From Lachnospiraceae bacterium (GTDB taxonomy: Bacteria > Bacillota > Clostridia > Lachnospirales > Lachnospiraceae), in assembly GCA_017619635.1 (NCBI GenBank), contig JAFZRZ010000071.1:186001-250000 (forward strand): a stretch of 64,000 bases of DNA. Reading direction: 5' to 3'. A model generated the notes under the pieces. It searched no databases. It was given only the letters and a program-made list of their open reading frames with translations, and was not told where the DNA came from. The translations under genes were made by a program, and so were the position numbers. This document shows, piece by piece, positions 10,472 to 47,165 of this stretch. How positions within the stretch are numbered: the stretch's first letter is position 1; every line of letters begins with the position of its first letter.

Positions 10472-11401
10472 TTACGCTCCTACTACATCGTTAGCTATTT
10501 CGCCTGTCTTAAATATAAATCCAACTGCTGTAAAGTTAAGAATCAACAATTCTGCTACACCCATTAAGACACCATGAGAATTACCCATTATATCAACACT
10601 TTCTGATAAACTTCCCATGATATTACAAATAAGTATGGCAGCAGCCAGCCTTATAAACAAAGCAACAAACTTTTTCAAATATCTTGCTCCCGGGCTTCTC
10701 AATCCTTCCTGATAAATATCTGCAACAGCTACAGGTGCAAAACACTTTCTAATACCGATTTCAAGAATGATCTGATAAAAAGCAAATTTGCAAGCTATCA
10801 TTGCAGCGAATGACAGGAAGAATGGTAAAGAAAGCATTGCGATTGCTCCAAGTCTCCAACCAAAACCACCGTCGTCATCTCCTGTAAGGGATACTAAAAG
10901 ATCACTTGCTGCTAAATGCGGGGATTTTGGTTCTACAGAATCACCTGCCGTTGTAATAAACCATGTGCCTAACTGACCTAAAATGGAAATTATCTTATCA
11001 AGATTCATGATTATGATAAGAGATATTCCTATTTCTATTAACACCTTAAATACACACTCAACAGGATCCTGTCCCTTTTCGATGTTTGAAATAAGATGCC
11101 CCATAGCCAGAATGATAACCAAAAAACCACCGATTACTTTTACGGCTTTGTAAAAATTCTCAAATTGAGCAATCCCCATAGGATTGGAAATTACGATTTT
11201 GTTATACAGACCATCGGGTTCTGATAAAATCTCTGCAGCCATCTCGCTCGTTCCCATGAGGATTGTTTCACTCATGTTGGCTATAGTCTCATTAAGATCA
11301 GCCTTTGCAAGAGGCATGCTGAACGAAAGGATAAAGCATACTATTACCAAGCAGACAGTTAATATATTGATTCTTTTACGCATGTCTATGCTATTAGTCA
11401 T
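10472..11401 (-). CDS. VirB6/TrbL-like polytopic transfer protein
   Basis: A 309-residue membrane protein with a signal-like first helix (residues 13-33), then about five more hydrophobic segments (VIGGFLVIILAMGHLI, IGISLIIIMNLDKII, LSLPFFLSFAAMIACKFAFYQII, LAAAILICNIMGSL, LLILNFTAVGFIF). A polytopic protein between the pilin-like gene and the PrgI-like gene corresponds to VirB6/TrbL in other systems. The motif ICKCFAPVAVADIYQEG-like stretch (IRKCFAPVAVADIYQEG) is a cytoplasmic loop. The start has AAAAGGAG upstream. Confidence 0.75.
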   Translation of the reverse strand: MTNSIDMRKRINILTVCLVIVCFILSFSMPLAKADLNETIANMSETILMGTSEMAAEILSEPDGLYNKIVISNPMGIAQFENFYKAVKVIGGFLVIILAMGHLISNIEKGQDPVECVFKVLIEIGISLIIIMNLDKIISILGQLGTWFITTAGDSVEPKSPHLAASDLLVSLTGDDDGGFGWRLGAIAMLSLPFFLSFAAMIACKFAFYQIILEIGIRKCFAPVAVADIYQEGLRSPGARYLKKFVALFIRLAAAILICNIMGSLSESVDIMGNSHGVLMGVAELLILNFTAVGFIFKTGEIANDVVGA

Positions 11402-11470
11402 TGTTGTTTGCTCCTTTTGTTAAAAAGGGATAGGCATATTACCTATCCCCTCCATAAACTTCGTCTTCGA

Positions 11471-11821
11471 TTAACCAAGATCGATATTGCCAACGAGGTC
11501 GCCAGCCTTAGCCTTAAGGATAATGCTGAGTGCTGCGAGCATAACGCCTGCTGCGATCTTACCAACTGCTTTGCTCTGTGCAGGGCCATCACCTTCAGAA
11601 TGAGCTGAAGCGTAGTTTACAATACCAACTACTGCCATGATAACTGCGAGAGCTGTGATCAACATTGCTATGATACCGATAATGTCTTCCATAAGCTTCT
11701 TTGCATCTGCACAAGCAAATGAACTTGTTCCAAATGCTACTGCAAGAGCCAGAACCTTGGGAGAAGTCTTTGTCATCAGCATCTGAGCTTTCTGTTCCAT
11801 TTCGAATAACTTTTTCTTCAT
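11471..11821 (-). CDS. VirB2/Maff2-like small membrane subunit
   Basis: A 116-residue protein with an N-terminal basic region and hydrophobic stretch (VLALAVAFGTSSFACA, possible signal or first helix), then two long hydrophobic helices (DIIGIIAMLITALAVIMAVVGIVNYA and GKIAAGVMLAALSIILKAKA) separated by a polar turn (SAHSEGDGPAQSKA). This two-helix layout is that of the VirB2/TrbC pilin-like and Maff2 proteins of Gram-positive transfer systems. It has its own promoter-like site upstream, separate from the VirD4 gene, as expected for a subunit needed in many copies. Confidence 0.75.
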   Translation of the reverse strand: MKKKLFEMEQKAQMLMTKTSPKVLALAVAFGTSSFACADAKKLMEDIIGIIAMLITALAVIMAVVGIVNYASAHSEGDGPAQSKAVGKIAAGVMLAALSIILKAKAGDLVGNIDLG

Positions 11822-11888
11822 TTTAGTTCTTCCTTTCTTGTAAAAGAGTTTGTAAATATATTTTTGTTAGGTCAAAATTTTCAAACCT

Positions 11889-11925
11889 AATAATAGTATG
11901 GTGAAAATAAAATAAAAAAATGCAC
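11889..11925 (-). promoter_or_regulatory. Promoter, class-2 form, before the pilin-like gene
   Basis: Minus strand TGCATTTTTTTATT with CATACTATTATTA starting 20 bases after TGCA. A small inverted repeat (TTAGG...CCTAA) follows in the presumed leader. It would drive the virB2-to-NlpC/P60 operon independently of virD4. Confidence 0.5.
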
Positions 11926-11928
11926 GTT

Positions 11929-14409
11929 TTAAGCTTCTACGTAAGAAAATTCATCATTTTCTTCTCCAATTGCTAGATTTACCATGGTTTCTATAGCCTC
12001 TTTTATCTGTGTATCAGACGCTCCAGGCGCTAAACCAAGCGTTTTCATGATATCTTCACCGAATGTTTCGATATTATTCTGATTAGCATCATCGAAGGTG
12101 TCTAATGCATCTTTAGCCAGTTGAGAAGTGGTCTTTCTAGCGGTATTTTGGTCATTTCTGAGCTTTTTGAGACGTTCTGCATCGTTGTTTAAGAAGTCGA
12201 AATCAGGCATTATCGCGTCATCGTCATTTTTTTGTGCAAAAATTTTGCTATTTTCTTTCACATTTTTGTCGATTTCCGGTTTCGGACCCTGCGAAACGGG
12301 TTCGTTTTGAGCATTTCCTATAGAAATAGGTGTCTGATTTTCTTTTTTATGCTTGTTTCTTAAATACAGAGGCAGTGCATCGTCCTCATTTTGAGAACCA
12401 AGTTTGGGAATATATATCTTACCCTGTGTTGCTTCCGACTCTTTATATCTCGGGTGCTTTGTAAGTTCATATTTCTTTCCATAGAACGGTCTGACACCTC
12501 TGATACATACGAGAGCTTCTGTATCGTCCATCATCTGGATCTGATCTGCTGTCAGAAGTTCGATAGACGACTTATTATATGAAGTATTACCACCGCTCTT
12601 ACCCGAACCCCAAGAGGTGTTCTCTACAGTGGTCGTCTTCTTTGCAAGTTTTTCTATGATCCATTTGATCGTTTCCATGTCGGCTGAACCGAGGAATAAA
12701 ACGGAGTCACAGTTACCTACGATAGTATTCCAATCTTTTTCATACAGTGATTTTAACTGTGACAGAGCCTGTAAGATGATAGAACAACTTATCTCGTATT
12801 TACGCATTGTAGCAAGTTTTTCGTTGAATGCCGGTATCTGACCGATATTAGCGAACTCGTCGAGCATAAATCTTACGTGGTTGAAAAGTCGTCTGCCTCC
12901 ATATGGCTCTATCTTCATATTTTTAAGACTTGCTATAAACTGTTTAGCAGCTTCCTGTGTACCTCTCCATGCAATAAGGTTGCCGTTTTTCTTTGTCACT
13001 ATCTCGTAAACGTTCTTCTTCTCGTTATGTCTGATAGTACAACCTTTGCTTATATCCTTTGCAAGAAGTCCCGCATATCTCTTTGCGTTTTCTGAATCCT
13101 TTTCGTCTTTTGCATGGAATACTGCTATATTATCTTTACCTACTGATAATCTCCAACCATACTTTGAATTTACTTCACAGTATGAATATAAGGTAGAGAA
13201 TATCTGTGAATAGAACATTGCAACAAGGAAGTTGAACGTCTTATCTGCAGTAGGGATAACAACGAAGATAGCCTTCTTTGTATCACCAAGACTAAATAGG
13301 TCGAAATCATCTGCTCCTGTAAGATACTGAATATCGGAAAGTCCGAATGCCTGCATACGTACGTTTACAGATATAAGGATAGATTTAAGTGTCTTACCTG
13401 CACCGATCTTAAACTTCTTGTACTGTTGTACTGCAAGATTTTCGGGATCTTCTTTTTCAAGGTCATCAAACAGTGCATCAAGAGGTGACTGTGCAGATGC
13501 ATCATTTTCATCTACTTCTGCGAGGGTTACCATTTGAGCAACCTTTGCAAATGTTCTGTCTTCAGGATTTTCCGCGTTATGCCACAGATAAAGTATCAAT
13601 GCAGTAAGTAACAGTTTTTCAGAGTTCTCCCAGAACGGATCTCCTCCACTCTTTCCATCAGGAGTGGTGTTACGTATAAACGCTTCAACCAGTGTGAATA
13701 CATCTTTTTCTTCTCTGATATATTCAAACGGGTTATATCTGCTGCTCGAATGTACATCAGTAAGATTGAATACCTTTACATCGTATCCCTGATCCTCAAG
13801 GTATTTACCATAGTCGTTCAATAACTCACCCGAAGGGTCTGTTACAACGTAGTTACAGTTCGCCTGTAAAAGATTGGGACCTACGAAGAATCTCGATTTA
13901 CCTGCACCAGAACCACCGATTGTAAGAATGTTACAGTTTCTTCTAGTACCTCTGTTATCGATAGCAAGTCTCACGTCCTGTGTGAGAATCATATTACCCT
14001 TACCGGTTATATCAACTGAACCGAATGGATCAACGAACCTTTTGTTATATTCTTTCAGTTCGTCCATGGTCATCAGATGGGCTTCACCGTTTACGGTCTC
14101 GGGATTATCATGCTTCCTGAGTTTGGCTGTTGATGCGTACATTATAAACAGCATCGCTGCCATTATTGAGAAGAGTAAGAAGTTTCCGATATCTGCCATT
14201 TTTGCCGGCAGAAATCCTAAAGGTTTTGTGAGTACCTGTGTTAATCCCTGCGAGAATGCTTCAGTAAAACCTATACGTCTTGATTCAGCCATTATATTCT
14301 TCGCCTGAAGGTATGCATCGAACAGATATATATAGAAGATACTGCCAACGATCGCATAGATTTTCAGGTTCTGTTTCTTGGCTTTCTCCTTATCTATTGG
14401 AGATTTCAT
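11929..14409 (-). CDS. virD4: VirD4/TraG-type coupling ATPase
   Basis: The type IV coupling protein brings the DNA-protein substrate to the secretion channel. The 826 residues show an N-terminal membrane pair (about 20-35 and 60-80), the Walker A loop GGSGAGKSRFF (about 168), the Walker B strand VRFMLDEFANIG (about 515) and the family block SIILQALSQLKSLY (about 545). The C-terminal 150 residues are acidic and disordered. The start overlaps the preceding 455-residue gene by 20 bases and has AAAGGAGG upstream, so the two are translationally coupled. No relaxase is encoded in this window. Confidence 0.93.
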   Translation of the reverse strand: MKSPIDKEKAKKQNLKIYAIVGSIFYIYLFDAYLQAKNIMAESRRIGFTEAFSQGLTQVLTKPLGFLPAKMADIGNFLLFSIMAAMLFIMYASTAKLRKHDNPETVNGEAHLMTMDELKEYNKRFVDPFGSVDITGKGNMILTQDVRLAIDNRGTRRNCNILTIGGSGAGKSRFFVGPNLLQANCNYVVTDPSGELLNDYGKYLEDQGYDVKVFNLTDVHSSSRYNPFEYIREEKDVFTLVEAFIRNTTPDGKSGGDPFWENSEKLLLTALILYLWHNAENPEDRTFAKVAQMVTLAEVDENDASAQSPLDALFDDLEKEDPENLAVQQYKKFKIGAGKTLKSILISVNVRMQAFGLSDIQYLTGADDFDLFSLGDTKKAIFVVIPTADKTFNFLVAMFYSQIFSTLYSYCEVNSKYGWRLSVGKDNIAVFHAKDEKDSENAKRYAGLLAKDISKGCTIRHNEKKNVYEIVTKKNGNLIAWRGTQEAAKQFIASLKNMKIEPYGGRRLFNHVRFMLDEFANIGQIPAFNEKLATMRKYEISCSIILQALSQLKSLYEKDWNTIVGNCDSVLFLGSADMETIKWIIEKLAKKTTTVENTSWGSGKSGGNTSYNKSSIELLTADQIQMMDDTEALVCIRGVRPFYGKKYELTKHPRYKESEATQGKIYIPKLGSQNEDDALPLYLRNKHKKENQTPISIGNAQNEPVSQGPKPEIDKNVKENSKIFAQKNDDDAIMPDFDFLNNDAERLKKLRNDQNTARKTTSQLAKDALDTFDDANQNNIETFGEDIMKTLGLAPGASDTQIKEAIETMVNLAIGEENDEFSYVEA

Positions 14410-17672: not shown

Positions 17673-17715
17673 AGAAGTATGTATTATATAAAATATTTTT
17701 TGAAATTTTGTGCAA
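17673..17715 (-). promoter_or_regulatory. Class-1 promoter
   Basis: Minus strand TTGCACAAAATTTC, 28 bases to CATACTTC. Faces the gene at 17609. Its upstream T-tract is shared with the terminator of the Rad52-like gene. Confidence 0.6.
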
Positions 17716-17752: not shown

Positions 17753-18604
17753 TTAAAGAAGTTCGTCGGCGAGCTGCTTGAATTTCTTATACTGGACTTC
17801 CATATCGGGAACGTCTTTGTAATTTCGATTGCTTGACTTAACATATTTAAGGAAAGCTATGAAATTAGCAGAATTCTTTGCGTTTCCGAAAGTCTGATTT
17901 TTGCAATTGCCGATCAGAATTATCTCGTCGTCCTTAAAGAGTTTAGCTGCTTCGCAATCAGAGACCTTCTTCTGAACAGGTGTAGCCTGTGGAGCTGACT
18001 GCTGTACAGGTGCTGCAGTCTGTCTAGGCTGCGGGGCGGGATTGCTTGCCTGCTGATTCTGATCTGTGAACCTTCTGAATGTTTTTGTATGATGCTTTTT
18101 ATTGTTGCAGTATATATCGATGGTTATGGATTTGATAAATCCTTCTCCATACTCTATAGCTACAGGAATAAAGACATCGTAACAAACATATCCATTGTTG
18201 CCTTTGGCTTTCAAGCCCTGAAGACAATCTTTGGTTACAAACAGATTGAGTTTATCTGCAGTGTAAAGTTCTCTTCCTATGCCCCAGTTGAAGCATGCTC
18301 TTTTGAAACTGTCAGAAGCAAGACCTTTGGCTGCCTGAGTATTGGATTCAACACCGGTATCTTCCTTTGAAACCCAGAGCTTCTTTTCATCGTCCCAAAT
18401 GCTTACAGTACAGTTCGCATTGTCACGACTATGAGTTCTCTGCCAGTTCATAGGACCTACCGTTTCGTCCAGGATCTTCTGATCTACTCTGGCATCTTTG
18501 TAAAGAAGTATCTGCACTCCATTTTCAGTTACTCTAGCCAGTCTGCATTCTATCTCGTCTGCTGTAAGTGGACGAAAATCGAATTTCTTATTTTCTGCTC
18601 CCAT
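17753..18604 (-). CDS. Rad52-like single-strand annealing protein
   Basis: Rad52/22-type annealing proteins of phages and plasmids pair complementary single strands. The N-terminal 160 residues carry the family pattern: LDETVGPMNWQRTHS (about 46-60), then a strand with WVSKEDTGVESNTQAAKGLASDSFKRACFNWGIGRELY (residues about 80-118, given here as a position), where GLASDSFKRA and GIGRELY are the conserved core. A glutamine/proline linker follows (about 190-220), then a 60-residue C-terminal domain probably for SSB or partner contact. GGAG precedes the start. It neighbours ssb. Confidence 0.8.
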   Translation of the reverse strand: MGAENKKFDFRPLTADEIECRLARVTENGVQILLYKDARVDQKILDETVGPMNWQRTHSRDNANCTVSIWDDEKKLWVSKEDTGVESNTQAAKGLASDSFKRACFNWGIGRELYTADKLNLFVTKDCLQGLKAKGNNGYVCYDVFIPVAIEYGEGFIKSITIDIYCNNKKHHTKTFRRFTDQNQQASNPAPQPRQTAAPVQQSAPQATPVQKKVSDCEAAKLFKDDEIILIGNCKNQTFGNAKNSANFIAFLKYVKSSNRNYKDVPDMEVQYKKFKQLADELL

Positions 18605-18711: not shown

Positions 18712-18757
18712 ATATATAATATGGTTTATTTTTATGGCTCCGAAAAATTTTGTGCAA
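18712..18757 (-). promoter_or_regulatory. Class-1 promoter for the Rad52-like gene
   Basis: Minus strand TTTTTGCACAAAATTTTT, 28 bases to CATATTATATATAAG. A second simple CATATTTATTAAG box lies nearer the gene at about 18635-18648. Confidence 0.6.
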
Positions 18758-18824: not shown

Positions 18825-20117
18825 TTAAATTTTTAAAGTTTTGCAGCAGGTGTCTGCCACTTTACCACAGTTCTCACGAAGCACGTCCAAAAGATAAGGG
18901 TGAACCTTTTTCTCTTTCTTCTCGTCCTCGTTTTCATCTGTAATATCTTCCTTGTCTACGCCAAACGACATAGCCTTTTCGGGAAGAGACAGACAACTAA
19001 TCACAAGATCCATAACAGAATACTTTCTGTCGGATTCTACTTCATCGCATACAAGCCTTACAAGACCTTTTCTGGTCTTTGCCGGTAATGAATCGCATAT
19101 AGCGCTTACCAACTTGTCCAGAGCCTTTTTAGTCTCCTCGTAATTCAATGCAGAACCTTCTTCTGTAGAAATGTCTACATCTTTTACAGCGGGAAGATAA
19201 ACGTTCGACAATTTTGTGATATTGCCGGTAGCCGTCTTCATCTCTGCAAGAAGCTCTTTTACGTCTGCAAGAGAATCTTCGTATGTGATCTCTGAAGTAT
19301 GCTTACGTGCCAGTTTCTTATAGATACTGTAGGTTTCGCCGACTCTTAATGTCAGCATCGTGGTGTAACTGCAAAAACCGGTATCACTCGTTATGATCGC
19401 TATTCCGGGGATAACGCCCTCTACTGCGGGGAACTCACAAAGAACCTCCGTATATTCTGTACTGATCTTATAACGTGTGAATGTTGCACCTTTTGTTGTT
19501 AAATACTTGCAGACATCAACCAGATTATACTGATTAGAAAGTGAGAAGTAGTTAGCAAATACAGATACAACTTTCCTGATAGGCTTACCGTTACCACAAT
19601 TGCCCTCTCTGACAACAAATGAAAGATTCTTGATCTTTCCTTCAGTCACCTTCGTTCTTGCAGCATCTGCAATCTGAAGATTTCTGAAAAGGCTTGCCCT
19701 GTTGACCATCATACTTCCTCCAAGTGAAAGAAGTTTCAACAGCTGAGGCATTGCACTCTGTCCGATGAGATATTTCTCGTCATCTACGATCGCAACTAAT
19801 TGTGTGGTGTTGTCAAGTTCTTCGATAAGTTGGTCATTACCAAGGTCTTCAAGAAGAACCTTACCAACCTTAAAGAAACTCGTCATACCCAGATATTCGT
19901 CAAGAAGCTCGGGTTTTAACACTACGAAAGCCTTTTTACCTTCAAGCTTTGCTTTGTCAGCAAATGTTCCGACTGCACAACTTGAGATAAACTTTAACAG
20001 GATCGGCGTGGTCTTAACCACATGTGTGTCCTGTGACAACTTCTTGATTGTTTCCGAAAAGTCGGCAAGAGATTTCCCCTCTTCTACAAAGCCGTCACTT
20101 AACATTTTTAAATCCAT
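18825..20117 (-). CDS. DUF932-like plasmid/phage protein, unknown role
   Basis: A 430-residue soluble protein. The central region (VREGNCGNGKPIRKVVSVFANYFSLSNQYN at about 165-195; VEGVIPGIAIITSDTGFCSYTTMLTLRV at about 235-262) has the look of the DUF932 family of plasmid and phage proteins whose role is not settled. The C-terminus is acidic and lysine-rich. AAAGGAGG precedes the ATG. It sits in an operon with the ribbon-helix-helix gene and the interrupted small frame upstream, and before the Rad52-like gene, so a DNA-related role is likely. The family assignment is tentative. Confidence 0.65.
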   Translation of the reverse strand: MDLKMLSDGFVEEGKSLADFSETIKKLSQDTHVVKTTPILLKFISSCAVGTFADKAKLEGKKAFVVLKPELLDEYLGMTSFFKVGKVLLEDLGNDQLIEELDNTTQLVAIVDDEKYLIGQSAMPQLLKLLSLGGSMMVNRASLFRNLQIADAARTKVTEGKIKNLSFVVREGNCGNGKPIRKVVSVFANYFSLSNQYNLVDVCKYLTTKGATFTRYKISTEYTEVLCEFPAVEGVIPGIAIITSDTGFCSYTTMLTLRVGETYSIYKKLARKHTSEITYEDSLADVKELLAEMKTATGNITKLSNVYLPAVKDVDISTEEGSALNYEETKKALDKLVSAICDSLPAKTRKGLVRLVCDEVESDRKYSVMDLVISCLSLPEKAMSFGVDKEDITDENEDEKKEKKVHPYLLDVLRENCGKVADTCCKTLKI

Positions 20118-20219
20118 TTATCATATCCTCCTTTTCTCCGGATTGTAAATTTCAATTGATACACATAGTATGCTTGATGAATTGAAAAATAAAAACGATT
20201 TATAAAATCTTCGGAGAAA

Positions 20220-26699: not shown

Positions 26700-27005
26700 T
26701 TATCGATTATTCTTTCGATATTCAAAATATTTGATCTTGAGCATTTCGGCGATATAGATCTTGATTTGATTATTCTCTATGCTTTTAGATATGCCCGTCA
26801 AATCCTCTATCATAGCCATGTATGCATCTTGGATTATATCATCGATCTGCATATGATCCGTTATGCCTTTGAATGCCTGTTGAGATAAGAATGCGTATGA
26901 AAATGTACGCATCTCTGAATAAAGCGCAGTCATGAACGCTTTTTTGTCTTCATCTTCATTTGTTGATTTCCATTTGTTGTAATACTGTTTGATTTTTGTT
27001 TCCAT
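26700..27005 (-). CDS. Short sigma-factor-like protein (region 2 only)
   Basis: A 101-residue helical protein. Residues about 30-98 resemble sigma-70 region 2: the segment MQIDDIIQDAYMAMIEDL corresponds to the core-binding helix DLxQexxl, and IKIYIAEMLKIKYFEYRKNNR ends like the -10-reading helix. There is no region 3 or 4. It could be a split sigma subunit, an anti-sigma decoy or a regulator of the full sigma factor at 30671. A class-1 promoter lies upstream and a Cas12a-like unit follows the stop directly. Confidence 0.55.
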   Translation of the reverse strand: METKIKQYYNKWKSTNEDEDKKAFMTALYSEMRTFSYAFLSQQAFKGITDHMQIDDIIQDAYMAMIEDLTGISKSIENNQIKIYIAEMLKIKYFEYRKNNR

Positions 27006-27050
27006 GAGCGTTGTTAGTATACCTACACATATACAAGTAGACGTTTATAA

Positions 27051-27095
27051 TATAAATATATGAGAAATAAAAATAATAATAAAAATTTTGTGCAA
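27051..27095 (-). promoter_or_regulatory. Class-1 promoter for the sigma-like gene
   Basis: Minus strand TTTTTTTTGCACAAAATTTT, 27 bases from TTGCAC to CATATATTTATA. It also fits TTTTAT-N16-CATATA. Fused to the preceding terminator. Spacing: transcript would start near 27045. Confidence 0.6.
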
Positions 27096-27127
27096 AAAAA
27101 AGAATGAAGTATAAACCTCACTCTTTT
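27093..27127 (-). terminator. Terminator of the primase gene
   Basis: Minus strand hairpin GAGTGAGG ... CTTCATTC (with G-U pairs) followed by eight T. The T-run continues into TTGCAC of the next promoter. Confidence 0.65.
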
Positions 27128-28374
27128 TTAGATAAATCTGAGCCGAAAAACTTCATCATATCGGTATATTTCTTACCTTTTGTGATGATGTAATTGAGGA
27201 ATTTTTCCGTATCCTTGTATTCTACAAGAAAATCGTCCAATCCTTTTATATTACCATTCCATTTTTCGGTCTTTGGATCGAAATCCCATCTTAACGGGTG
27301 AGTCTTAAATCCATACTCATCTTCCAAGATGCTCATAAGATCCTTTGTTGCTTTCATAAGGTTATCAACTTTTTCCTGCTCCTTTGGAGTTGTTGCTACT
27401 GCATATTTATCCATATCAAATGCCTCGTAAGCATATGCGTATGAATATCTATCCAGAACGCCTCTTAAAGAACTCTTGGCATTTACGCCGGGAACGCCGA
27501 TAACTGTCACTTCTCCTTTTAGGAGATACCAGATGATCGTTGATTTTAAGATACCCTCGGTCACGATAAGAATGTTGTCATTCTTGCCTGGCAAGTAATT
27601 TGTAAGAGCACCGCTAGATACTCCACTTGGCTTGCCTGCACTCGATATCCATAGATACTTTGACTTCTCTATCGGGTTATCCAGACGTATCTGAAATCCC
27701 AATATGTAACCATGTTCACCGTCAAATACCGGACAAAGATAACCTTCGCCTGCTATATACAGATTCCACCTGCCGTATTTATCTTTATAAAAACCGGGTA
27801 CACCTTCAAGAGTACAACCTTCTGATATAAGTTGCTTACAGATACCTGCAGTTTCCTTATAACTCGGCGTTGATCTGAATTTAAGACTATAGATGATCTC
27901 CTGACTTAAACCTCTTTTTAAAAGGTTGTCATTATGCTCTTTCTTCAGTCTTAACTTCTTTAACAGTGCTCTATAGGTCTTATCTCTTACGGAGTCGGCT
28001 GCAATCGCAACATCGTCATCTTTTGTTTTTAAGATAGCGATCTCCTTACGGTGAAAATCCTGTAATATAGAATCTCCGTTGATAGCAGCGAAGATATCTT
28101 TAATGGCGTTTTTGGAACCATCGATTCCACTGTAATCCTTGGAGTAATCATAGTTCGTTTCTATGAAAAACTTAACAGAATTACCCGAAGCTCCACACTT
28201 CCAACAATGGTAGGTGTTCTTCTTGTTATTGTAAGAGAATTTGCCTCTGGTGTCCCCACAAAAAGGACAGTCGCAATAGGTTTCATTCCCGTTTGTTTTT
28301 GGGGAATGTCCCCTTAAGCTGTTATAGCCGCGTATCTCAACGACATCGGCTATAGTGAATCTGTCACTACCCAT
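27118..28374 (-). CDS. DnaG-like primase, short form
   Basis: A 418-residue primase that should make the RNA primers for the element's polymerase. The N-terminus has a CHC2-type zinc finger (CDCPFCGDTRGKFSY ... YHCWKCGASG, residues about 34-64). The middle shows the DnaG pattern YLCPVFDGEHGYILGFQIR, and the TOPRIM glutamate is in ILIVTEGILKS (about 270). The C-terminal helicase-binding domain of DnaG (normal length about 600) is missing. No DnaB-type helicase lies in this window. AAAGGAGG precedes the ATG. Confidence 0.8.
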   Translation of the reverse strand: MGSDRFTIADVVEIRGYNSLRGHSPKTNGNETYCDCPFCGDTRGKFSYNNKKNTYHCWKCGASGNSVKFFIETNYDYSKDYSGIDGSKNAIKDIFAAINGDSILQDFHRKEIAILKTKDDDVAIAADSVRDKTYRALLKKLRLKKEHNDNLLKRGLSQEIIYSLKFRSTPSYKETAGICKQLISEGCTLEGVPGFYKDKYGRWNLYIAGEGYLCPVFDGEHGYILGFQIRLDNPIEKSKYLWISSAGKPSGVSSGALTNYLPGKNDNILIVTEGILKSTIIWYLLKGEVTVIGVPGVNAKSSLRGVLDRYSYAYAYEAFDMDKYAVATTPKEQEKVDNLMKATKDLMSILEDEYGFKTHPLRWDFDPKTEKWNGNIKGLDDFLVEYKDTEKFLNYIITKGKKYTDMMKFFGSDLSKKE

Positions 28375-28496
28375 ATTTATCTGTCCTCCTTTTTATAATC
28401 ATATATTACAAGATAAGTATGAGTAAATTAGTCAATTATAAAATTATCAAGAACAATGGTGTATTTCAACCGTCTTTTCCGACAGGGAACTGGTCC

Positions 28497-28516
28497 ATCT
28501 ACAATAGTAGACATTT
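28497..28516 (-). repeat. Cas12a-handle-like solitary unit, copy 3
   Basis: Minus strand AAATGTCTACTATTGTAGAT, five bases after the stop of the 52-residue frame at 28522. It is 212 bases from copy 4, too far for a CRISPR spacer. Guide side: 28473-28496. Confidence 0.75.
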
Positions 28517-28521
28517 TTTAA

Positions 28522-28680
28522 TTACACGTTAAATTTCCAACGTGAATATAATAATCCTGCGCATGCCCTTGCATAGTCAGTATTACATCCGCAAATTTGT
28601 TTAATGTATTTATAGGCAGGTACGATTTCTTCACTTACCGAATCCCCAAATATATAGGCATAACAAAGAATAACATTCAT
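28522..28680 (-). CDS. Possible 52-residue protein between two repeat units
   Basis: Frame MNVILCYAYIFGDSVSEEIV...SRWKFNV with three cysteines. No ribosome binding site is seen before the ATG, and the open frame extends about 15 codons upstream without a start. It may be the remnant of a larger gene or a translated cargo between the two repeat units. Unknown family. Confidence 0.35.
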   Translation of the reverse strand: MNVILCYAYIFGDSVSEEIVPAYKYIKQICGCNTDYARACAGLLYSRWKFNV

Positions 28681-28727
28681 ATTGTCATCGTATACGCTGA
28701 CATTTTCAGATTCTGTACGCTCAGATT

Positions 28728-28747
28728 ATCTACAATAGTAGACATTA
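28728..28747 (-). repeat. Cas12a-handle-like solitary unit, copy 4
   Basis: Minus strand TAATGTCTACTATTGTAGAT; its first three bases are the TAA stop codon of the NERD gene. Guide side 28704-28727. Confidence 0.75.
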
Positions 28748-29668
28748 CTTGCGATTTTTCTTCATCTTTTTTAACATATCTTTTTGTCTTTCACGTTCCC
28801 AATACTGCTGATATTCTTCTTCAACCTGTAATCTTTCCTGATCCTTTTTGAACTGTCTTAACTGCTTTTTAGTCGCTTCGTATTTTTTAAGTTCTGTATA
28901 TAACTGTTCTACTTCGGCAGCAGTGTATATATCGGGCATAGATTCGAGATGTTTTTTAAATGTGATGATTCCCGGATCGAGCATCTTTGTCACAAATCTG
29001 AATAGATATTCTTTGTTTATTTTAAGTAAAAATGAACCCTCTCCTTCAAGTGGGGCAAGTCCTTTGTTTTCAAAGGATCTGAATTCCAATCCCAGATGAC
29101 TGAATGTCCATTCAAAATTGACTATTACCATATTGTAAATGCCCTTTGCTGATAAAGGAACGTTATCTGCCAGGGCTGCAATATGTGTCTTATTCTGTAT
29201 AAATGGATTGTGCAATGATATACCATTTTGTGGATCCAGTACCCATGTGTCTGACATGAGTTTTATATATGGAATATGCTCAAGATCATTGAAAGACCTA
29301 TGTTTACATTCACAACAGAATACGCCTTTTTGGTTTATGAATACCATATCCGCCTCTGTCTTTTTTAGTGGAATGAAGTCACATGGCAGAAGCAGACTGT
29401 GTAACATCTTTGCCTTTAAGTGCTTTTTAATGACATTGGATACCAATTCTTCATATCTTGCGCCAACTTTGTTTGGAGAGTTATGGATACATCTGTAAAT
29501 ATATTGGAGCGTAAAGAATATCGTTATTGTTATCCCTAACAATACCACATTTACAAAGAATCCTGCGATCAATCCATATTTATGAAAATTGTCGAGATAT
29601 AAGCCGATATACCAACTTAATAATTCACCTATCAGCCTAATCAGCTGACGAAGTGGGTTCGTTCTCAT
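28745..29668 (-). CDS. Membrane-anchored NERD-domain (nuclease-related) protein
   Basis: A 307-residue protein. Two N-terminal hydrophobic segments (about residues 8-25 and 34-54), then a NERD domain (about 65-190) with the nuclease-like core TEADMVFINQKGVFCCECKHRSF, where D-x-C-x-E-C-K fits the D-ExK site of this family. A charged coiled coil ends the protein (LKKYEATKKQLRQFKKDQERLQVEEEY). NERD proteins are linked to DNA processing, often on plasmids. GCAGGAG precedes the ATG. It overlaps the upstream gene by 32 bases. Confidence 0.75.
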   Translation of the reverse strand: MRTNPLRQLIRLIGELLSWYIGLYLDNFHKYGLIAGFFVNVVLLGITITIFFTLQYIYRCIHNSPNKVGARYEELVSNVIKKHLKAKMLHSLLLPCDFIPLKKTEADMVFINQKGVFCCECKHRSFNDLEHIPYIKLMSDTWVLDPQNGISLHNPFIQNKTHIAALADNVPLSAKGIYNMVIVNFEWTFSHLGLEFRSFENKGLAPLEGEGSFLLKINKEYLFRFVTKMLDPGIITFKKHLESMPDIYTAAEVEQLYTELKKYEATKKQLRQFKKDQERLQVEEEYQQYWERERQKDMLKKMKKNRK

Positions 29669-30518
29669 TGTTCTTTCTCCTGCTTGCTTCGTAATCCTCA
29701 GCCATTTTGAGGCCCTTGTTAAAATTTATCATATAGTATGCATTCATTGCCATACTCATCTTTTCTACCGTATCAAGCCATTCTGATGCTGTCATGCTGA
29801 ATTCATGTATCACTTCTGCATCTTTCTGCTTGATATTAACGTTTATAGTACCGCCCTCTTTCTTTTCGAACGGAGCATAGTAATTCTTGATCACAAATGA
29901 TACCGGATAGTTCTTGGCATAATCCCATGTAGCCTTACATTCATAACATAAGCACTTGCCGTCTTCTCTTGTCTTTCTGATAAGAGGTCTGACTCCGATC
30001 TCATATATTGTCATTGGAGCATATGAAGATATGTTGCCAATGGCGTTTTTTACGTCTTCAAACTCGTATTTAGAAACTTCTTTTATAGCGTCCATTAACT
30101 TCTGATTGCCGGGAAACTTTTCAAGGTTCTTCTTTAAGAACGAATACTGCTCCCGGAGAAGTTCCTTGCCGTCTGGTTTCTTTACGAGAACTTCTGCTGC
30201 GCTCATACCTTTAAGAGCACCTGTGTTAAACTTTTCTGTAAATGCGGGAGTATTGTGCTCGCTGTCTATATTGTCTGCTGTTTTTGTCTCAAGATATCTG
30301 TTGTAGGCAAAATCCGTATTTTTCTTGATCCTTGCCAAATGTTCAAGCTGAATATTGCATGTCAGAGCCTTCTTTTCCTGTATTATTGTTGCGACAAAAC
30401 GTGAAAAGTGATTAAACACCTTTAAAGGACTTTCTTCTGTTTCCTGCGAAAATCTTGCTTCAACTGAAAATGTCTTGTTTGTTCTTACGTGACTTACTAT
30501 ATCAAATGGATATTTCAT
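29637..30518 (-). CDS. Unknown protein, first gene of the NERD operon
   Basis: A 293-residue soluble protein. A CxxC pair (CLCYEC, about 193) lies between a helical N-terminal half and a beta-rich C-terminal part (YPVSFVIKNYYAPFEKKEGGTINVNIKQKDAEVIHEFSM as positions about 205-243). AAAGGAAA lies 11 bases before the ATG. It is preceded by a class-1 promoter and a perfect 16-base palindrome, and it overlaps the NERD gene. I do not recognise the family. Confidence 0.7.
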   Translation of the reverse strand: MKYPFDIVSHVRTNKTFSVEARFSQETEESPLKVFNHFSRFVATIIQEKKALTCNIQLEHLARIKKNTDFAYNRYLETKTADNIDSEHNTPAFTEKFNTGALKGMSAAEVLVKKPDGKELLREQYSFLKKNLEKFPGNQKLMDAIKEVSKYEFEDVKNAIGNISSYAPMTIYEIGVRPLIRKTREDGKCLCYECKATWDYAKNYPVSFVIKNYYAPFEKKEGGTINVNIKQKDAEVIHEFSMTASEWLDTVEKMSMAMNAYYMINFNKGLKMAEDYEASRRKNNENEPTSSAD

Positions 30519-30543
30519 GATACTGATATTTCCTTTCTCAATT

Positions 30544-30559
30544 CATACCTGCAGGTATG
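30544..30559. promoter_or_regulatory. Perfect 16-bp palindrome, candidate operator
   Basis: CATACCTGCAGGTATG lies between the -10 box of the class-1 promoter and the ribosome binding site of the gene at 30518, in the place of a repressor operator. Confidence 0.5.
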
Positions 30560-30575
30560 CTTAACTATTGTTTCT

Positions 30576-30621
30576 ATAATAAATATGTATTATTTTTATT
30601 TTTACTAAAAATTTTGTGCAA
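30576..30621 (-). promoter_or_regulatory. Class-1 promoter for the NERD operon
   Basis: Minus strand TTTTTTTTGCACAAAATTTT, 28 bases to CATATTTATTATAG. Its T-tract is the tail of the sigma-factor terminator. Confidence 0.65.
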
Positions 30622-30650
30622 AAAAAATAGAGGCATATAGCCTCTATTTT
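30619..30650 (-). terminator. Terminator of the sigma-factor gene
   Basis: Minus strand AATAGAGG-CTATATG-CCTCTATT followed by T-run that leads into TTGCAC. Confidence 0.8.
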
Positions 30651-30670
30651 AATGAACATAATATTAAGTT

Positions 30671-31648
30671 TTAGATGTCTTCAGCGGTATCCATGAAACT
30701 GTCCATGTCTTCGGTTGCGATCATGTCCTCTACGTCACCGTAAGGATCCTCTTTGATTACGTAGTTGTAATCTTTTGCGTAAGGATGCAATAAGGTGCAG
30801 TGTTTCATTTTATCAAGCGCCTGTAAATAGGTGTTTCTTAAGAAGTTCTGCTGAAGTTTTTTCTGTCCTGACGGCAAATAGCACTCAAACTGCTTACGAT
30901 ATTCTTCGTTTGTGTCGAATGCTTTCTTGAGCCTTACAAAAGACATGTTCTCATTGAGTTTAACCTGTGTGAGAACTTCTTTTTCAAGAGGAGTGAGCGT
31001 CTCGTCCATTGCTTTAAGAATGAGTTCGGCTTTCTCTCTCTTGATCGCTGCTTCTTCAGGAGTATCTTTAGAGCTTACTTCCAGAGTATTGTCATGTTCG
31101 TCAATAGACATTACATGAATTCTGCTGCCCTCGATAGTCTTCCTGATAGTTGTGAGCGGAATACTGGTTGCCAGTGACAGTCTAACAGGAATATCCGCAT
31201 CTAAATTAGGATCTGCACATGTCGTATCGTATCCCCATAATTTAAGTGTTGCATCAAGTACCCTTCTGGTGTTCAGGTAATGACCTGACTGTTGATTAGA
31301 TAAAGGAGCCTTGGAGAACTCAATTATAGGTTTGTCAAAATACGACGTCAGTGTTGACTGATAAGGATCGTATTCGGGTAATTTTTTGATTATTCCCGCA
31401 TACACTTCCTGCTGAAGATCGCTCATCTCTGCACCTTGAGTACGGTGCAGTTTTGTAAGTTTGGACACGATGTAGTAGCTTAAACGGTCGCATACAAATG
31501 CGCAATAGTCTTTCCACTCTTGTGTGCCAACTCCGCCAGCTGCAATGGCTTTGCTATACATCTCTATGACATCGTCATGAGAATAGCTTTCACTGGTCTT
31601 AAAGTTTTTCTTGTTGGGCTCTTCTGCCGCATTACTTACTCTTGCCAC
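30671..31648 (-). CDS. Sigma-70 family RNA polymerase sigma factor
   Basis: A 325-residue sigma factor that could direct host RNA polymerase to the element's promoters. Region 2 is at about residues 65-105 (EMSDLQQEVYAGIIKKLPEYDPYQSTLTSYFDKPI as positions); regions 3-4 follow, with ETLTPLEKEVLTQVKLNENMSFVRLKKAF (about 220-248) as the region-4-like start. It ends in an acidic tail (DVEDMIATEDMDSFMDTAEDI). I start at GTG 31648 because AAAGGAGG lies six bases upstream; the earlier TTG would lie inside that site. It overlaps the 60-residue gene upstream by 17 bases. Confidence 0.8.
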   Translation of the reverse strand: MARVSNAAEEPNKKNFKTSESYSHDDVIEMYSKAIAAGGVGTQEWKDYCAFVCDRLSYYIVSKLTKLHRTQGAEMSDLQQEVYAGIIKKLPEYDPYQSTLTSYFDKPIIEFSKAPLSNQQSGHYLNTRRVLDATLKLWGYDTTCADPNLDADIPVRLSLATSIPLTTIRKTIEGSRIHVMSIDEHDNTLEVSSKDTPEEAAIKREKAELILKAMDETLTPLEKEVLTQVKLNENMSFVRLKKAFDTNEEYRKQFECYLPSGQKKLQQNFLRNTYLQALDKMKHCTLLHPYAKDYNYVIKEDPYGDVEDMIATEDMDSFMDTAEDI

Positions 31649-31814
31649 GTCTTTCCTCCTTTGCAAGATTCAACAATTCCTTGTCGGAATTGGATACATG
31701 CTTGATGGCTTCCAATCTCCTTGATACCTCAAAAATGTCTTTAACAACAGATTTTGGCTCAGAATTGTTATATTCTTCTACGGGAGAAAAAAGACTTTGG
31801 TTCCTTGCGTTCAT
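31632..31814 (-). CDS. Small charged protein upstream of the sigma factor
   Basis: A 60-residue soluble helical protein (MNARNQSLFSPVEEYNNSEP...ERRGKSK). AAAGGAGG sits seven bases before the ATG. Its 3' end contains the ribosome binding site and start of the sigma gene (17-base overlap), so the two are translationally coupled. By position it could be an anti-sigma or co-regulator, but no motif shows this. A CATACTTACC box about 30 bases upstream is a likely promoter. Confidence 0.65.
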   Translation of the reverse strand: MNARNQSLFSPVEEYNNSEPKSVVKDIFEVSRRLEAIKHVSNSDKELLNLAKEERRGKSK

Positions 31815-32425
31815 ATTTCCTCCTTTTCAACTTATACATTGTTACATGGTAAGTATGTATAAAAGAGGGAAACATAAAGACTTGTATTTTGATGTGGCTG
31901 CTGTCAGTTGTCAGCAGTTTTTGATCCCTACGTGAACAAGCATTAAACAATTATTTCTATTAGTCGCCACTTTCCCTTGGGCTAAGTTTAATTTACTCCT
32001 CACACCTTTCAATGTCAATCTTTAAATTTTTGTAAAAACGTCTATTTTTGCCCGAAAATACGACATTTATCCCCATTTTCGTATGGGTTTAACACAACAT
32101 CTTGTGGTGATAGTGCAAAATTTCACTACATATATACAATATACAAAATATATGTTCGATAATAACATTTCAGAACATCTTACAAAAACCTACTTAAATA
32201 TTTGGTTATTATTTCAATGAAAAATTTTAAAAAACCACTTGACACGGGACTTAACCCAACATACATTTTTAAGCACTTTTCAAGTGATGATTTTTTGTGT
32301 TATCCCATTGCGTGCATTTTTCGTGCCTTTTCTTTTCTTAATAAATCTTAAGGTTTAAAATTAAATATGAAAAAGTAACGATTTTTAGATAAGTCTGCAA
32401 TTTGCCAGAACGGTATATCGCGTTT

Positions 32426-37210: not shown

Positions 37211-37666
37211 TTAACGTTGTTTTAAAAACTCCTCAAGTTCTGACCTGCCAACGCATGAATACTGTGTATCCAAAAGCATATCGGCAACAGTCTGTACGTC
37301 CATATCCGGAGCGATATAATAGTCGTCTGTTATCAGATCAAGCCATTCGTCATCGTTGCGAACTGTACATTCAGAAAGGGCTTTTGCAAAAAATCTTAAA
37401 TCAGTACCGGGGATATAGCCGGCTGTATCCAAATTTTCCAACTCGCTGCTTTCTGTTACAATGGAAAGTCCACAATTAGAATCGAAATTGGTGTATGTTA
37501 CATAGATACAACCGTCCTGAAAAACAATCTTTCCAACCGAATCTTTTAATATGAGATAAAGATCCGCTGTAAGATTATCCAGTAACCTCATTCTTTTTCC
37601 AACATCTTCGCATGTGTTGATATCGTTGATACGACTAACAAGAGTTTCCTTTGTTAATAATTGCAT
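37211..37666 (-). CDS. Unknown acidic protein, 151 aa
   Basis: A soluble acidic protein (MQLLTKETLVSRINDINT...SELEEFLKQR) with a beta-rich centre (KIVFQDGCIYVTYTNFDSNCGLSIV) and an acidic C-terminal third (NDDEWLDLITDDYYIAPDMD). AAAGGAGG lies seven bases before the ATG. It lies 117 bases upstream of the methyltransferase on the same strand. The composition would suit a DNA-mimic or an immunity-type protein, but that is speculation. Confidence 0.65.
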   Translation of the reverse strand: MQLLTKETLVSRINDINTCEDVGKRMRLLDNLTADLYLILKDSVGKIVFQDGCIYVTYTNFDSNCGLSIVTESSELENLDTAGYIPGTDLRFFAKALSECTVRNDDEWLDLITDDYYIAPDMDVQTVADMLLDTQYSCVGRSELEEFLKQR

Positions 37667-37758
37667 ATTGACCTCCTTTAATAATGTTATAAATTCAACA
37701 TGGAGTTTTATGCTGACAATAAAATAGCACCGGAACCATGTCCAATGCTATCTATTAC

Positions 37759-39117: not shown

Positions 39118-39999
39118 TTATATCTTGCCGAAAAGATTTTCGTAACCCTTTGTATCTACGAGTTTTCTTAAGAATATGCCTCTGTAGTGAGCCTCAAGCC
39201 TTGTTTCGACCGGACGACCATCTTCTGTAAGAAGGAAGCCGTTCTCATCGAAGAATCTGGGATCAGAGTAAATATCGATGTCTGACTTGCATGTGAGAGT
39301 TAAGATGTTTCTCATTCTCTTTGCGATCTCCCATGCATTCTTGAATGCTTCCTTGCTGATGAAGTCCTCGTATGTATTTTTTACAATTTTCTCAGGCATA
39401 GGGGGTTTTTTGCCCTGTTTGATGTATTCCCCTCTTTCATCTAAACTTAAATCTTTATATTCAAAAACGCTTGTTCTTTTGAATAAATCCGGATCGTTTT
39501 TGATAAAAGCAATCGCTTCTTTGCATGTAGCTGCAAGATATATATCTTCCAGTACATCATCGCTCATACCTGAAACCGGAGTATTTACAGTGTCGGGACT
39601 GAAAATTCCCTCTAAATTAACATACAGCATGCCTAAATTTGTGAAGTATAACGCTTTTTTCATCTCCATGGTGGTTTTGCAGTCATCTGCAGTCATGCTA
39701 TATGACTTTATTACTGTCTTTTCGAGAGCTGCCATTTTCTTCTCTTCAGGTGACATATTGTCTAACCTGTTGATAAATTCTATGACATTATTTCGGTTAT
39801 CTTCTAGTCTCAGGATATTATCTTCTATATTTTTATTTCCCTTTTCGTTATAAACTGTAAATATACCAAATGAAAGAGACAGAGAATTTAAATATTGAGC
39901 TTCTGTGATTTTTCCTTCATCATATAATTTTCCTGTCATTACATCAGCGAACGGGCTGTAGTAATTCTGTGTTAAATCTAGCTTTTTCTTACCAAACAT
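39118..39999 (-). CDS. Unknown protein, 293 aa
   Basis: A mostly helical soluble protein (MFGKKKLDLTQNYYSPF...GYENLFGKI). No cofactor or metal motif is visible; the centre is rich in charged helices (NNVIEFINRLDNMSPEEKKMAALEK). AGGAGG lies 13 bases before the ATG, with a class-1 promoter behind it, so it begins the two-gene operon with the CoiA-like protein. Function unknown. Confidence 0.65.
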   Translation of the reverse strand: MFGKKKLDLTQNYYSPFADVMTGKLYDEGKITEAQYLNSLSLSFGIFTVYNEKGNKNIEDNILRLEDNRNNVIEFINRLDNMSPEEKKMAALEKTVIKSYSMTADDCKTTMEMKKALYFTNLGMLYVNLEGIFSPDTVNTPVSGMSDDVLEDIYLAATCKEAIAFIKNDPDLFKRTSVFEYKDLSLDERGEYIKQGKKPPMPEKIVKNTYEDFISKEAFKNAWEIAKRMRNILTLTCKSDIDIYSDPRFFDENGFLLTEDGRPVETRLEAHYRGIFLRKLVDTKGYENLFGKI

Positions 40000-40055: not shown

Positions 40056-40102
40056 TATATATAGTATGACATATTTGTATTAAAAGCGAAAATTTTGTGC
40101 AA
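40056..40102 (-). promoter_or_regulatory. Class-1 promoter
   Basis: Minus strand TTTTTGCACAAAATTTTC, 28 bases to CATACTATATATAG. Faces the gene at 39999. Confidence 0.65.
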
Positions 40103-45278: not shown

Positions 45279-45323
45279 TTTATAGTATGAAATATTATTA
45301 TTGTTCTTAAAATTTTTGTGCAA
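45279..45323 (-). promoter_or_regulatory. Class-1 promoter for the cysteine-rich/HNH/RecD operon
   Basis: Minus strand TTTTTTTGCACAAAAATTTT, 28 bases to CATACTATAAAC. Confidence 0.65.
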
Positions 45324-45376: not shown

Positions 45377-45982
45377 TCACTCAACAACGCATATATCCTG
45401 GGCGATGATATTGTGACGGTATGAGCCATTTTTGCTTTTTCCCATTACGGAGCAAACGGTTTTGACGAATTTATTTACTTCGAGATTATCGGGAAGCTTT
45501 GATCTGTCTCCGTCTATGCTTACCTGAATGATGTTCTTTTCTTCACCCTTTTCGTCTGTGGAGATAAACAGGCGTACCCATGAACCTCTTTCGGTCTTAT
45601 CCTCGATTATATTTACGAGTTTACCTGCCAGGAACGTTTCGCTGTCGCTTCGATGAAAAGCACCTTTTGAGCCTGCTCCAAAATATTTTTCACAGATGGT
45701 CTGACCAGACTCTAGCGCGTCTCCCATCAATTGCGGAAATCCATTGTTGCTTGTAAAGTGACCGTATACTGATATATAGTCCTTTTCGTGATATCCGCTC
45801 GATCTCAAGACGTTGTTGCTGAACCTAAACTGCAGCGTTGTGGTCGTGTCCCCGTGACTATTTCCGGATTTAGTTATCACGTATACTTCGGAATAAGTTC
45901 CCTTATCGACGATACTTGATATCCGTCCGTACGAAACGATGGAATTAGTATAAATTCCTTTGTTGTTTTCGGTGTCGTTCAT
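45377..45982 (-). CDS. Tandem OB-fold (SSB-like) protein
   Basis: A 201-residue protein with two OB-type domains, about residues 10-95 (SIVSYGRISSIVDKGTYSEVYVITKSG; ISVYGHFTSNNGFPQL) and about 105-200 (FLAGKLVNIIEDKTERGSWVRLFISTD). The pattern fits nucleic-acid binding, and it is the third OB protein here after ssb and the zinc protein. AAGGAGG decides for the ATG at 45982. A class-1 promoter is upstream, divergent to another class-1 promoter. Confidence 0.65.
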   Translation of the reverse strand: MNDTENNKGIYTNSIVSYGRISSIVDKGTYSEVYVITKSGNSHGDTTTTLQFRFSNNVLRSSGYHEKDYISVYGHFTSNNGFPQLMGDALESGQTICEKYFGAGSKGAFHRSDSETFLAGKLVNIIEDKTERGSWVRLFISTDEKGEEKNIIQVSIDGDRSKLPDNLEVNKFVKTVCSVMGKSKNGSYRHNIIAQDICVVE

Positions 45983-46035
45983 ATAACGATCCTCCTTATG
46001 AATCATTTCTTCAATATGACCTTCATATAGAAGTA

Positions 46036-46082
46036 TATCGTAAATATGTGTTTTTTATTTTAGTTCTGAAAATTTTGTGCAA
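46036..46082 (-). promoter_or_regulatory. Class-1 promoter for the OB-fold gene
   Basis: Minus strand TTCTTGCACAAAATTTTC, 28 bases to CATATTTACGATATAC. Confidence 0.6.
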
Positions 46083-46173: not shown

Positions 46174-46222
46174 AATTTTTGCACAAAAAATCAAAAAATA
46201 TTTAATATAATTCATGTTTATG
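46174..46222 (+). promoter_or_regulatory. Class-1 promoter for the plus-strand operon
   Basis: Plus strand TTTTTGCACAAAAAAT, exactly 28 bases from TTGCAC to CATGTTTATG. It faces the plus-strand operon that starts at 46301, divergent from the site at 46036. Confidence 0.55.
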
Positions 46223-46300: not shown

Positions 46301-46651
46301 ATGCAAAATGAGATGAAAGGTATCTGGAACAGGATTACCATCTACTGTATGAACCATGATGAACCCAAACCTATGGAGATACTTCAAAACCTTGAGCAGA
46401 TCAAGACTCCTTTTTATGCGTGTACCGATGAACATTGCCCTAATAGACTAAATTTTGATGATTATCAGGGGCTTGTCCTTGAATTCATCAAAGCTATAGA
46501 TGAAGAGGGATATTTTGGTACTGATTTTACTAACTATACCTACACATATAAAGGAACCAGGCATAAGATCAAAGCAAAAATTCTTAAGTACAGTGGCAGC
46601 GAGATCCGCATAGGTATCCTTAATACTACTGTTTTAGGTATTAAGAAGTAA
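46301..46651 (+). CDS. Small protein of unknown function, first gene of the plus-strand operon
   Basis: A 116-residue protein with a CxxxxC pair (YACTDEHCPNRLNFDDY, about 40-55) and a basic, beta-rich C-terminus (YKGTRHKIKAKILKYSGSEIRIGIL). A stop lies just upstream in frame, so the start is ATG 46301 or the one four codons later; neither has a clear ribosome binding site. It is followed by signal peptidase I after 13 bases. Unknown family. Confidence 0.65.
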   Translation: MQNEMKGIWNRITIYCMNHDEPKPMEILQNLEQIKTPFYACTDEHCPNRLNFDDYQGLVLEFIKAIDEEGYFGTDFTNYTYTYKGTRHKIKAKILKYSGSEIRIGILNTTVLGIKK

Positions 46652-46664
46652 GAAAGGCTGAAAG

Positions 46665-47165
46665 ATGAACGAAAATAAAGAAAACACTGCGGTCGCTACA
46701 TTTAAGGTAGTGCTTCCGTATATTGTTGCCATTATAGTCGGTCTGTTTATTTCTTTTGCAGTAAAAGTTCTGTTTAGCCCTTATATTATAAGTGGGCCAT
46801 CAATGCTTCCTACTTATAAATCAGGAAGTGTTGTAAAGATAGACAGGGAATTTGATGAGTCGGATCTTAAAAAGGATACTGTTGTTATATATAAGTACAA
46901 AGGTAAAGATATCGTTAAACGTATAGTTGCTACCCCGGGTGATTTTTTGGTGATAGTCAATGGAGAGCTTCGTGTTAATCATGAAGAGGGTATCAATTTT
47001 GACGAGATAGACGAGCCTGGCATACTTAAAGATGAAATGATACTTGAAGAAGGCGAATATTTCTGTATGGGCGATAATCGTAATAACAGCCGTGACTGCA
47101 GAGAATATGGTCCGATCACAAAAGATGATATCATTGGCGTGGTAGAAAAAATATACATTCAATAG
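46665..47165 (+). CDS. lepB: Signal peptidase I
   Basis: Removes signal peptides from exported proteins at the outer face of the membrane. The 166 residues have one membrane helix (about 17-38), the catalytic serine in GPSMLPTYKSG (about 45), the lysine in VKRIVATPGD (about 83), and the C-terminal box GDNRNNSRD (about 137), as in Gram-positive SipS. Its place beside the second actin system and the presence of an exported nuclease, a sortase and an NlpC/P60 protein suggest that the element processes its own exported proteins. GAAAGG precedes the ATG. Confidence 0.92.
   Translation: MNENKENTAVATFKVVLPYIVAIIVGLFISFAVKVLFSPYIISGPSMLPTYKSGSVVKIDREFDESDLKKDTVVIYKYKGKDIVKRIVATPGDFLVIVNGELRVNHEEGINFDEIDEPGILKDEMILEEGEYFCMGDNRNNSRDCREYGPITKDDIIGVVEKIYIQ

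Follow-up and report, generated by a model that had tools for sequence, protein, structure and literature searches.

A diverged sigma-70-family protein and a CATAYT promoter signal on a conjugative plasmid-like element of Lachnospiraceae

The window analysed here is a stretch of 64,000 nucleotides covering bases 186001-250000 of contig C6 (280,209 bp) in the genome of a Lachnospiraceae bacterium (3.04 Mb, 96.8% complete). It encodes a 325-amino-acid (aa) protein with resemblance to sigma-70 factors, hereafter protein A, and carries numerous copies of a promoter-like hexamer, CATAYT. Sequence comparison revealed that the two ends of C6 are an exact 141-bp repeat of each other, so that the contig reads as a circular, conjugative plasmid-like element of 280,068 bp, inside which the masked bases form one run of 2,022 (contig C6 165220-167241). 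On the conjugation side, the window encodes a VirB4-like ATPase of the CD1110 family (NCBIfam E = 1e-231), PrgI and a type IV coupling protein. On the side of maintenance and replication, it encodes ParM-like actins, single-stranded DNA-binding proteins, the DNA polymerase III alpha subunit and a DnaG-type primase, together with two RecD2-like helicases, an NAD-dependent ligase and a cytosine methylase. Judged by this gene content, the backbone is of the conjugative replicon type.

The gene of protein A lies on the minus strand at 30671-31648 (window coordinates, as below unless a contig is named), starts with a GTG at 31648, six bases downstream of an AGGAGG, and stops at 30671. It is the second gene of a pair, the first being an open reading frame (ORF) of 60 aa (31632-31814, minus strand) that stands directly upstream and overlaps it, an arrangement in which translational coupling is probable. 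Ahead of the pair, on the same strand, a promoter of the form TTTATG-N15-CATACT-TACCAT-GTAACAATG (31837-31878) was recognised from the sequence and as a row in the alignment of CATAYT sites, with its CATACT box at 31857-31852 and an inferred start near 31845. A second, much shorter ORF with some likeness to sigma factors (101 aa, 26700-27005, minus strand) immediately precedes the DNA polymerase III alpha gene.

Relationship of protein A to sigma-70 factors

That the 325-residue product belongs to the sigma-70 family, as had been proposed in a sequence-only reading of the window, was upheld by several profile comparisons. The NCBIfam sigma-70 superfamily model TIGR02937 matched aa 53-230 (E = 3.2e-7; 30.1 bits, below the 42.9-bit cut-off), and Pfam Sigma70_r2 gave a weak match, also below its cut-off (E = 0.004). 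Using hhalign against a profile of group 1/3 sigma factors, assembled from sequences collected in the analysis, aa 41-227 could be aligned over 169 columns (probability 82, E = 1e-5). Protein A ranked second among the 271 proteins of the element, and the best element protein other than protein A and a region-4 fusion protein described below scored 15.

Homologues of protein A are carried by three related elements, which were located through protein similarity and have backbone genes in common with C6: G392:C16 from Lachnospira multipara (a member, like the host, of the Lachnospiraceae), G159:C2 and G450:C18. The L. multipara homologue is 27% identical to protein A over 217 aa (blastp E = 6e-17), and its gene is located upstream of the primase gene in the same arrangement as on C6, within a backbone in which polymerase III alpha (50% identity), VirB4 (56%), primase (39%) and others are recognisably related. 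A 57-aa ORF likewise precedes and overlaps this sigma gene, although no significant sequence similarity was detected between the 57-aa and 60-aa small proteins, and a role of the latter as anti-sigma factor or cofactor is only a guess. TIGR02937 matched the homologues of G450 (E = 4e-19, passing the cut-off) and G159 (E = 7e-7), Sigma70_r2 matched two of the homologues (E = 3e-4), region 2 thereby being detected in protein A and its relatives alike, and Sigma70_r4 was weakly recognised in the G450 homologue (E = 2.5e-4).

A two-row profile made of protein A and the L. multipara homologue was searched over 397 genomes and repeatedly found the housekeeping SigA, in dozens of genomes, at profile positions ~60-266. 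Of the 57 PDB chains matched by the same profile (best E = 1.3e-4), nearly all are sigma factors, in keeping with homology to the housekeeping sigma and with the region order 2-3-4. In protein A itself, region 2-like and region 4.1-like parts occur in order, region 4.1 aligning at aa ~205-230 and the helix-turn-helix part being too diverged to align. On the strength of these alignments, protein A is a strongly diverged member of the sigma-70 family that nevertheless looks complete. Its homologues surfaced solely via the related elements and the two-member profile; no direct relatives were found in phages, PLSDB plasmids, IMG/VR or GTDB contigs, with no match in the phage collection and zero tblastn matches among the PLSDB plasmids.

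Two further proteins of the element resemble parts of a sigma factor. The 101-residue protein had been described as resembling region 2 alone; its ORF is present, but the resemblance proved weak, as its best NCBIfam matches are two sigma models with E-values of 0.007 and 0.01, and 60 of 2000 shuffled copies scored equally well against a region-2 profile. At best, then, it would be a weak region-2 look-alike. In the corresponding place on G392:C16, between primase and polymerase III, sits a 177-aa protein (50131-50664) with a weak match to the sigma-70 superfamily (E = 0.007). Outside the window, contig C6 encodes a 320-aa protein (119988-120950) in which a sigma region 4 (Sigma70_r4, E = 3e-10) is fused to an RNA polymerase alpha C-terminal domain (alpha-CTD, E = 2e-11), without region 2. 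By its domain matches, this fusion appears more likely than the 101-aa protein to be a second sigma-like piece. Full-length relatives of it were absent from 299 family genomes, and blastp found no fusion-like protein on the three sigma-carrying related elements.

The CATAYT signal and its two promoter classes

CATAYT occurs 139 times in the window, against 103 ± 10 in shuffled sequences, and none of 100 shuffles reached 139. The excess is more pronounced for the bipartite motif TTTTAT-N15-17-CATAYT (8 in the window vs. 0.33 in shuffles), and on the whole 280-kb element TTTTAT-N16-CATAYT was found 18 times vs. 0.2. When all spacings from 10 to 23 were counted over the element, a spacing of 16 gave these 18 sites, 11 gave nine, and the others gave 0-3. 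For 15 of the 18 spacing-16 sites the distance to the following start codon is 31-50 bp, and for the remaining three it is 139-170 bp; several of the spacing-11 sites coincide with the class II promoters described below.

In 194 upstream zones of the element, the most enriched hexamers (observed/expected) were CATACT (29/3.0), GTAACA (23/2.9) and CATATT (46/13.3), while TATAAT remained below expectation (17/25.8). The reverse holds for 43 upstream zones of the host chromosome, where TATAAT was enriched (10/2.7) and CATACT (0/0.7) and CATATT (2/1.6) were not. No TTTAT-N16-CATAYT was present in a 118-kb sample of the host chromosome vs. 30 on the element. The CATAYT signal marks the genes of the element, and the host chromosome uses TATAAT instead.

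Alignment of the sites on CATAYT separated two classes, which, like the transcription starts given here, were deduced from sequence only. In class I sites the -10 box is preceded at 15-16 bp by a TTTATT-like sequence, which frequently falls on the T-run that belongs to the terminator hairpin of the gene before; transcription is predicted to begin 12 bases beyond the C of CATAYT. Part of the class has a conserved start that opens with GTAACAAT, as in CATATT-N6-GTAACAATT or, in the window, at 31845-31837; this transcript start is possibly a 5' RNA signal. Class II is characterised by TTGCACAAAA, present in 71 copies on the element vs. one in the chromosome sample, which in 25 cases begins exactly 34 bases before CATAYT. 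With this offset, TTGCACAAAA would cover roughly -46 to -37, where class II activators bind. The combination TTGCACAAAA-N24-CATAYT was found 25 times in the source genome, with all listed places on C6; none of 396 other genomes of the family had more than one.

The promoter ahead of the sigma operon belongs to class I. A motif restricted to the element and a class I promoter in front of the sigma gene are the features expected of a plasmid regulon sigma, and the latter predicts positive feedback, which suggests that the sigma gene may be autoregulated through its own promoter.

The probable reader of the promoters and its known counterparts

Each of the three related elements has a signal of its own in its upstream zones, which was compared with 120-160 kb of chromosome from the same organism. 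On G392:C16 the private signal is CTTATATATTTA, with CTTATATA in 23 of 52 zones vs. 0.5 expected (own chromosome 0/0.4). On G159:C2 it is TGGCATACTT (also given as TGGCATACT), with GGCATACT in 15 of 69 zones vs. 0.0 (own chromosome 0/0.0), and on G450:C18 it is CCATATT, in seven of 16 zones vs. 0.1 (own chromosome 0/0.7). TATAAT was clearly enriched in three of the four host chromosome samples, and slightly in that of Lachnospira (11/8.2). The starts are partly conserved as well: the Lachnospira element and C6 have the start region TATTTATTATG in common (start signatures CATATTTATTATG / TATATTTATTATG), and G450 and C6 a GTAAC start. Eight sigma-less relatives taken as controls (G216, G410, G032, G047, G385, pCY186, and the Subdoligranulum and Vescimonas elements) had no private motif, no protein A and no clear CATAYT enrichment. 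The simplest reading of these comparisons would be that this sigma family reads the promoters, and that sigma and signal diverged together.

Membership in the sigma-70 family, an element-specific signal and the private motifs on sigma-carrying relatives are three independent lines that make it very probable that protein A is the dedicated sigma factor of the element and reads CATAYT, as the sequence-only reading had put forward. Protein A would join the core RNA polymerase of the host, and the holoenzyme would be directed to the CATAYT -10 boxes in front of the genes of the element. At class I promoters it would meet, some 15-16 bp ahead of the -10 box, a TTTATT-like sequence, with transcripts often starting in GTAACAAT. 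At class II promoters the -10 box would be the same, with TTGCACAAAA 34 bp upstream replacing the -35 box, so that an extra DNA-binding factor is probably required. Located behind a class I promoter, the sigma gene would respond to its own product, and sigma, once made, would amplify its synthesis. What we infer in this scheme is that protein A itself is the reader, that the host core polymerase is used, and that the feedback loop operates.

Several points weigh against protein A as the reader or limit the case for it. By itself it falls below the curated Pfam and NCBIfam cut-offs, and AlphaFold2 models of it, both alone and with one homologue, were too poor to be informative (predicted local distance difference test scores of 38 and 46.5). 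The upstream zones were set by a simple home-made gene caller. The association between sigma and private motif (Fisher p = 0.007) is indicative only, as it rests on four elements with common ancestry and the Fisher value overstates their independence. Finally, no private motif is present in the region that surrounds a fifth homologue (G401).

From its domains and genomic setting, the fusion protein makes a good candidate activator of class II promoters. A class II promoter precedes its gene and a topoisomerase gene follows closely, and among the elements examined both the full-length fusion relatives and the TTGCACAAAA promoter class were found on this element only. The confinement to one element and the class II promoter of the fusion gene hint at a two-factor mode of initiation, which we put forward tentatively: the diverged sigma would provide -10 specificity everywhere, and the fusion would be a portable activator recruiting the sigma holoenzyme to class II promoters via TTGCACAAAA. 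Equally speculative is the placement that goes with it, in which TTGCACAAAA, as the binding site of the fusion, would lie roughly one turn of the helix further upstream than a -35 box usually does.

A split or two-component sigma, in which the 101-aa protein or the fusion is an obligate partner and protein A is insufficient alone, seems rather unlikely. There is precedent in SigO-RsoA (YvrI-YvrHa) of Bacillus subtilis, a split sigma, and C6 is similar in that sigma regions may be shared between two proteins. The clear region 4 and alpha-CTD of the fusion, without region 2, would suit such a partner, as would the sigma factors among the top matches of the 101-aa protein. Unlike in SigO-RsoA, however, the splitting is weakly supported: protein A spans regions 2 to 4.1, with the two ends in order, and the other protein, a region-4/alpha-CTD fusion, is encoded by a gene elsewhere on C6 and has no blastp counterpart on the three related elements. 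The match of the 101-aa protein is not significant against shuffles, and its proposed role as one half of a split sigma could not be established.

Quite unlikely, too, is that SigA of the host reads CATAYT, aided by an activator of the element or by AT-rich flanks, with protein A being minor or vestigial. CATAYT and TATAAT differ at two positions, class II sites bear an upstream activator-like box, and a motif scan by itself cannot identify the reader. Yet SigA would need to disregard its own preference for TATAAT, the hexamer used on the host chromosome and depleted in the promoter zones of the element, and none of the chromosome samples from the four hosts contains the motif, which varies between elements along with the sigma homologue. 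That a sporulation-type sigma of the host (E, G or K) reads CATAYT during sporulation is hardly credible and was rejected: the -10 boxes of B. subtilis sigma E, G and K do begin with CATA, a resemblance invoked earlier, but no sigma E, F, G or K was recognisable among the region-2/region-3 matches of the 96.8%-complete host genome (SigA, a FliA-like, a SigH-like sigma, extracytoplasmic function-type sigmas, and one further 251-aa group 3-like protein), the motif is missing from the host-chromosome sample, and the genes behind these promoters include ligase and primase, which serve the housekeeping of the element.

With protein A taken as the reader, the system has several partial counterparts. 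Phages encode middle and late sigma factors (T4 gp55; SPO1 gp28, gp33 and gp34) with a dedicated -10 signal across the phage genome, and C6 resembles them in combining an element-encoded specificity factor with such a signal spread over the element. C6 differs from them in being conjugative and plasmid-like with a type IV secretion system, and protein A seems to have all of regions 2 to 4, in contrast to the phage sigmas that have region 2 only. The UviA, BotR, TetR and TcdR group likewise comprises sigma factors on mobile DNA of Clostridia, but these serve one toxin or bacteriocin locus, whereas CATAYT promoters span the whole element, replication genes included. The closest precedent in role is SigN (ZpdN) of the B. 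subtilis plasmid pBS32, a plasmid sigma weakly similar to known sigma classes, which is induced by DNA damage, acts on more than 20 plasmid-only promoters with positive autoregulation, and is carried by a plasmid with a cryptic prophage-like region (PMC6751061, PMC10601692). Plasmid-restricted promoters and autoregulation are predicted here from sequence; unlike SigN, protein A is part of a conjugative element that brings its own replication genes, related elements carry homologues of it whose promoters have diverged, and there is a further class of promoters for which the region-4/alpha-CTD fusion is the candidate activator.

The usual view is that plasmids borrow the transcription specificity of their host. 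Here, a family of large conjugative Lachnospiraceae elements appears to carry a core sigma whose signal differs from that of the host and between elements, in a virus-like manner. If true, each element would have an insulated transcription programme working in every host with a core polymerase that accepts its sigma. The family would also provide a series of naturally occurring sigma/promoter pairs in which the evolution of -10 specificity can be studied, and possibly orthogonal expression parts for gut Clostridia.

Promoter sites in the window and minor features of the element

Besides the promoter of the sigma operon, putative class I sites on the minus strand were read from the sequence at 20167-20194 (TTTTAT-N16-CATACT, before the ORF 18825-20117), 28416-28443 (the same motif, 42 bp before the primase gene, 27118-28374), 37697-37724 (TTTTAT-N16-CATGTT, before the ORF 37211-37666) and 61667-61694 (before the ORF 61436-61636). 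The TTTTAT-N16-CATAYT sites named earlier at 50952, 57552 and 59829 were all recovered on the minus strand as class I promoters, located before the ORF 49817-50920 (50952-50979), before the ORF 56794-57516 (57552-57579), and 31 bp before the NAD-dependent DNA ligase gene, 57627-59798 (59829-59856). A class I-like site on the plus strand (62991-63018) stands 146 bp before the ORF 63164-63466.

Putative class II sites, also read from the sequence, are found on the minus strand at 3616-3655 (TTGCACAAAA-N24-CATACT, before a ParM-like actin gene), 17676-17715, 18718-18757 (before the ORF 17753-18604), 30582-30621 (TTGCACAAAA-N24-CATATT, before the ORF 29637-30518, just downstream of the sigma gene), 40063-40102 (before the ORF 39118-39999), 45284-45323, 46043-46082 (before the ORF 45377-46006) and 52746-52785 (before the ORF 51836-52699). 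One more, with CATGTT, lies on the plus strand (46179-46218) before an operon of that strand (46301-49769) encoding a signal peptidase and a ParM-like actin.

Outside the window, C6 carries ~30 transfer RNA (tRNA) genes in a single block (5373-12495, locus L003), none of them within the window, and it also encodes its own transfer-messenger RNA and an RtcB-type RNA ligase. Of the related elements, G392:C16 has three tRNA genes, and G159:C2 and G450:C18 have none.

A hairpin, AAATGTCTACTATTGTAGAT, is dispersed over C6 in ~30 intergenic copies of a single orientation, in the window at 21375, 26681, 28498, 28729, 32695, 53675, 53768 and 55637, and elsewhere on the contig, with a cluster at contig C6 68194-68628. 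Some copies sit immediately behind class II promoters. The hairpin resembles the direct repeat of Cas12a, which was considered as its partner and rejected, the RuvC_1 family (PF18516) not being found in the genome; the copies are reminiscent of the solitary repeat units of RNA anti-CRISPRs (PMC10651486).

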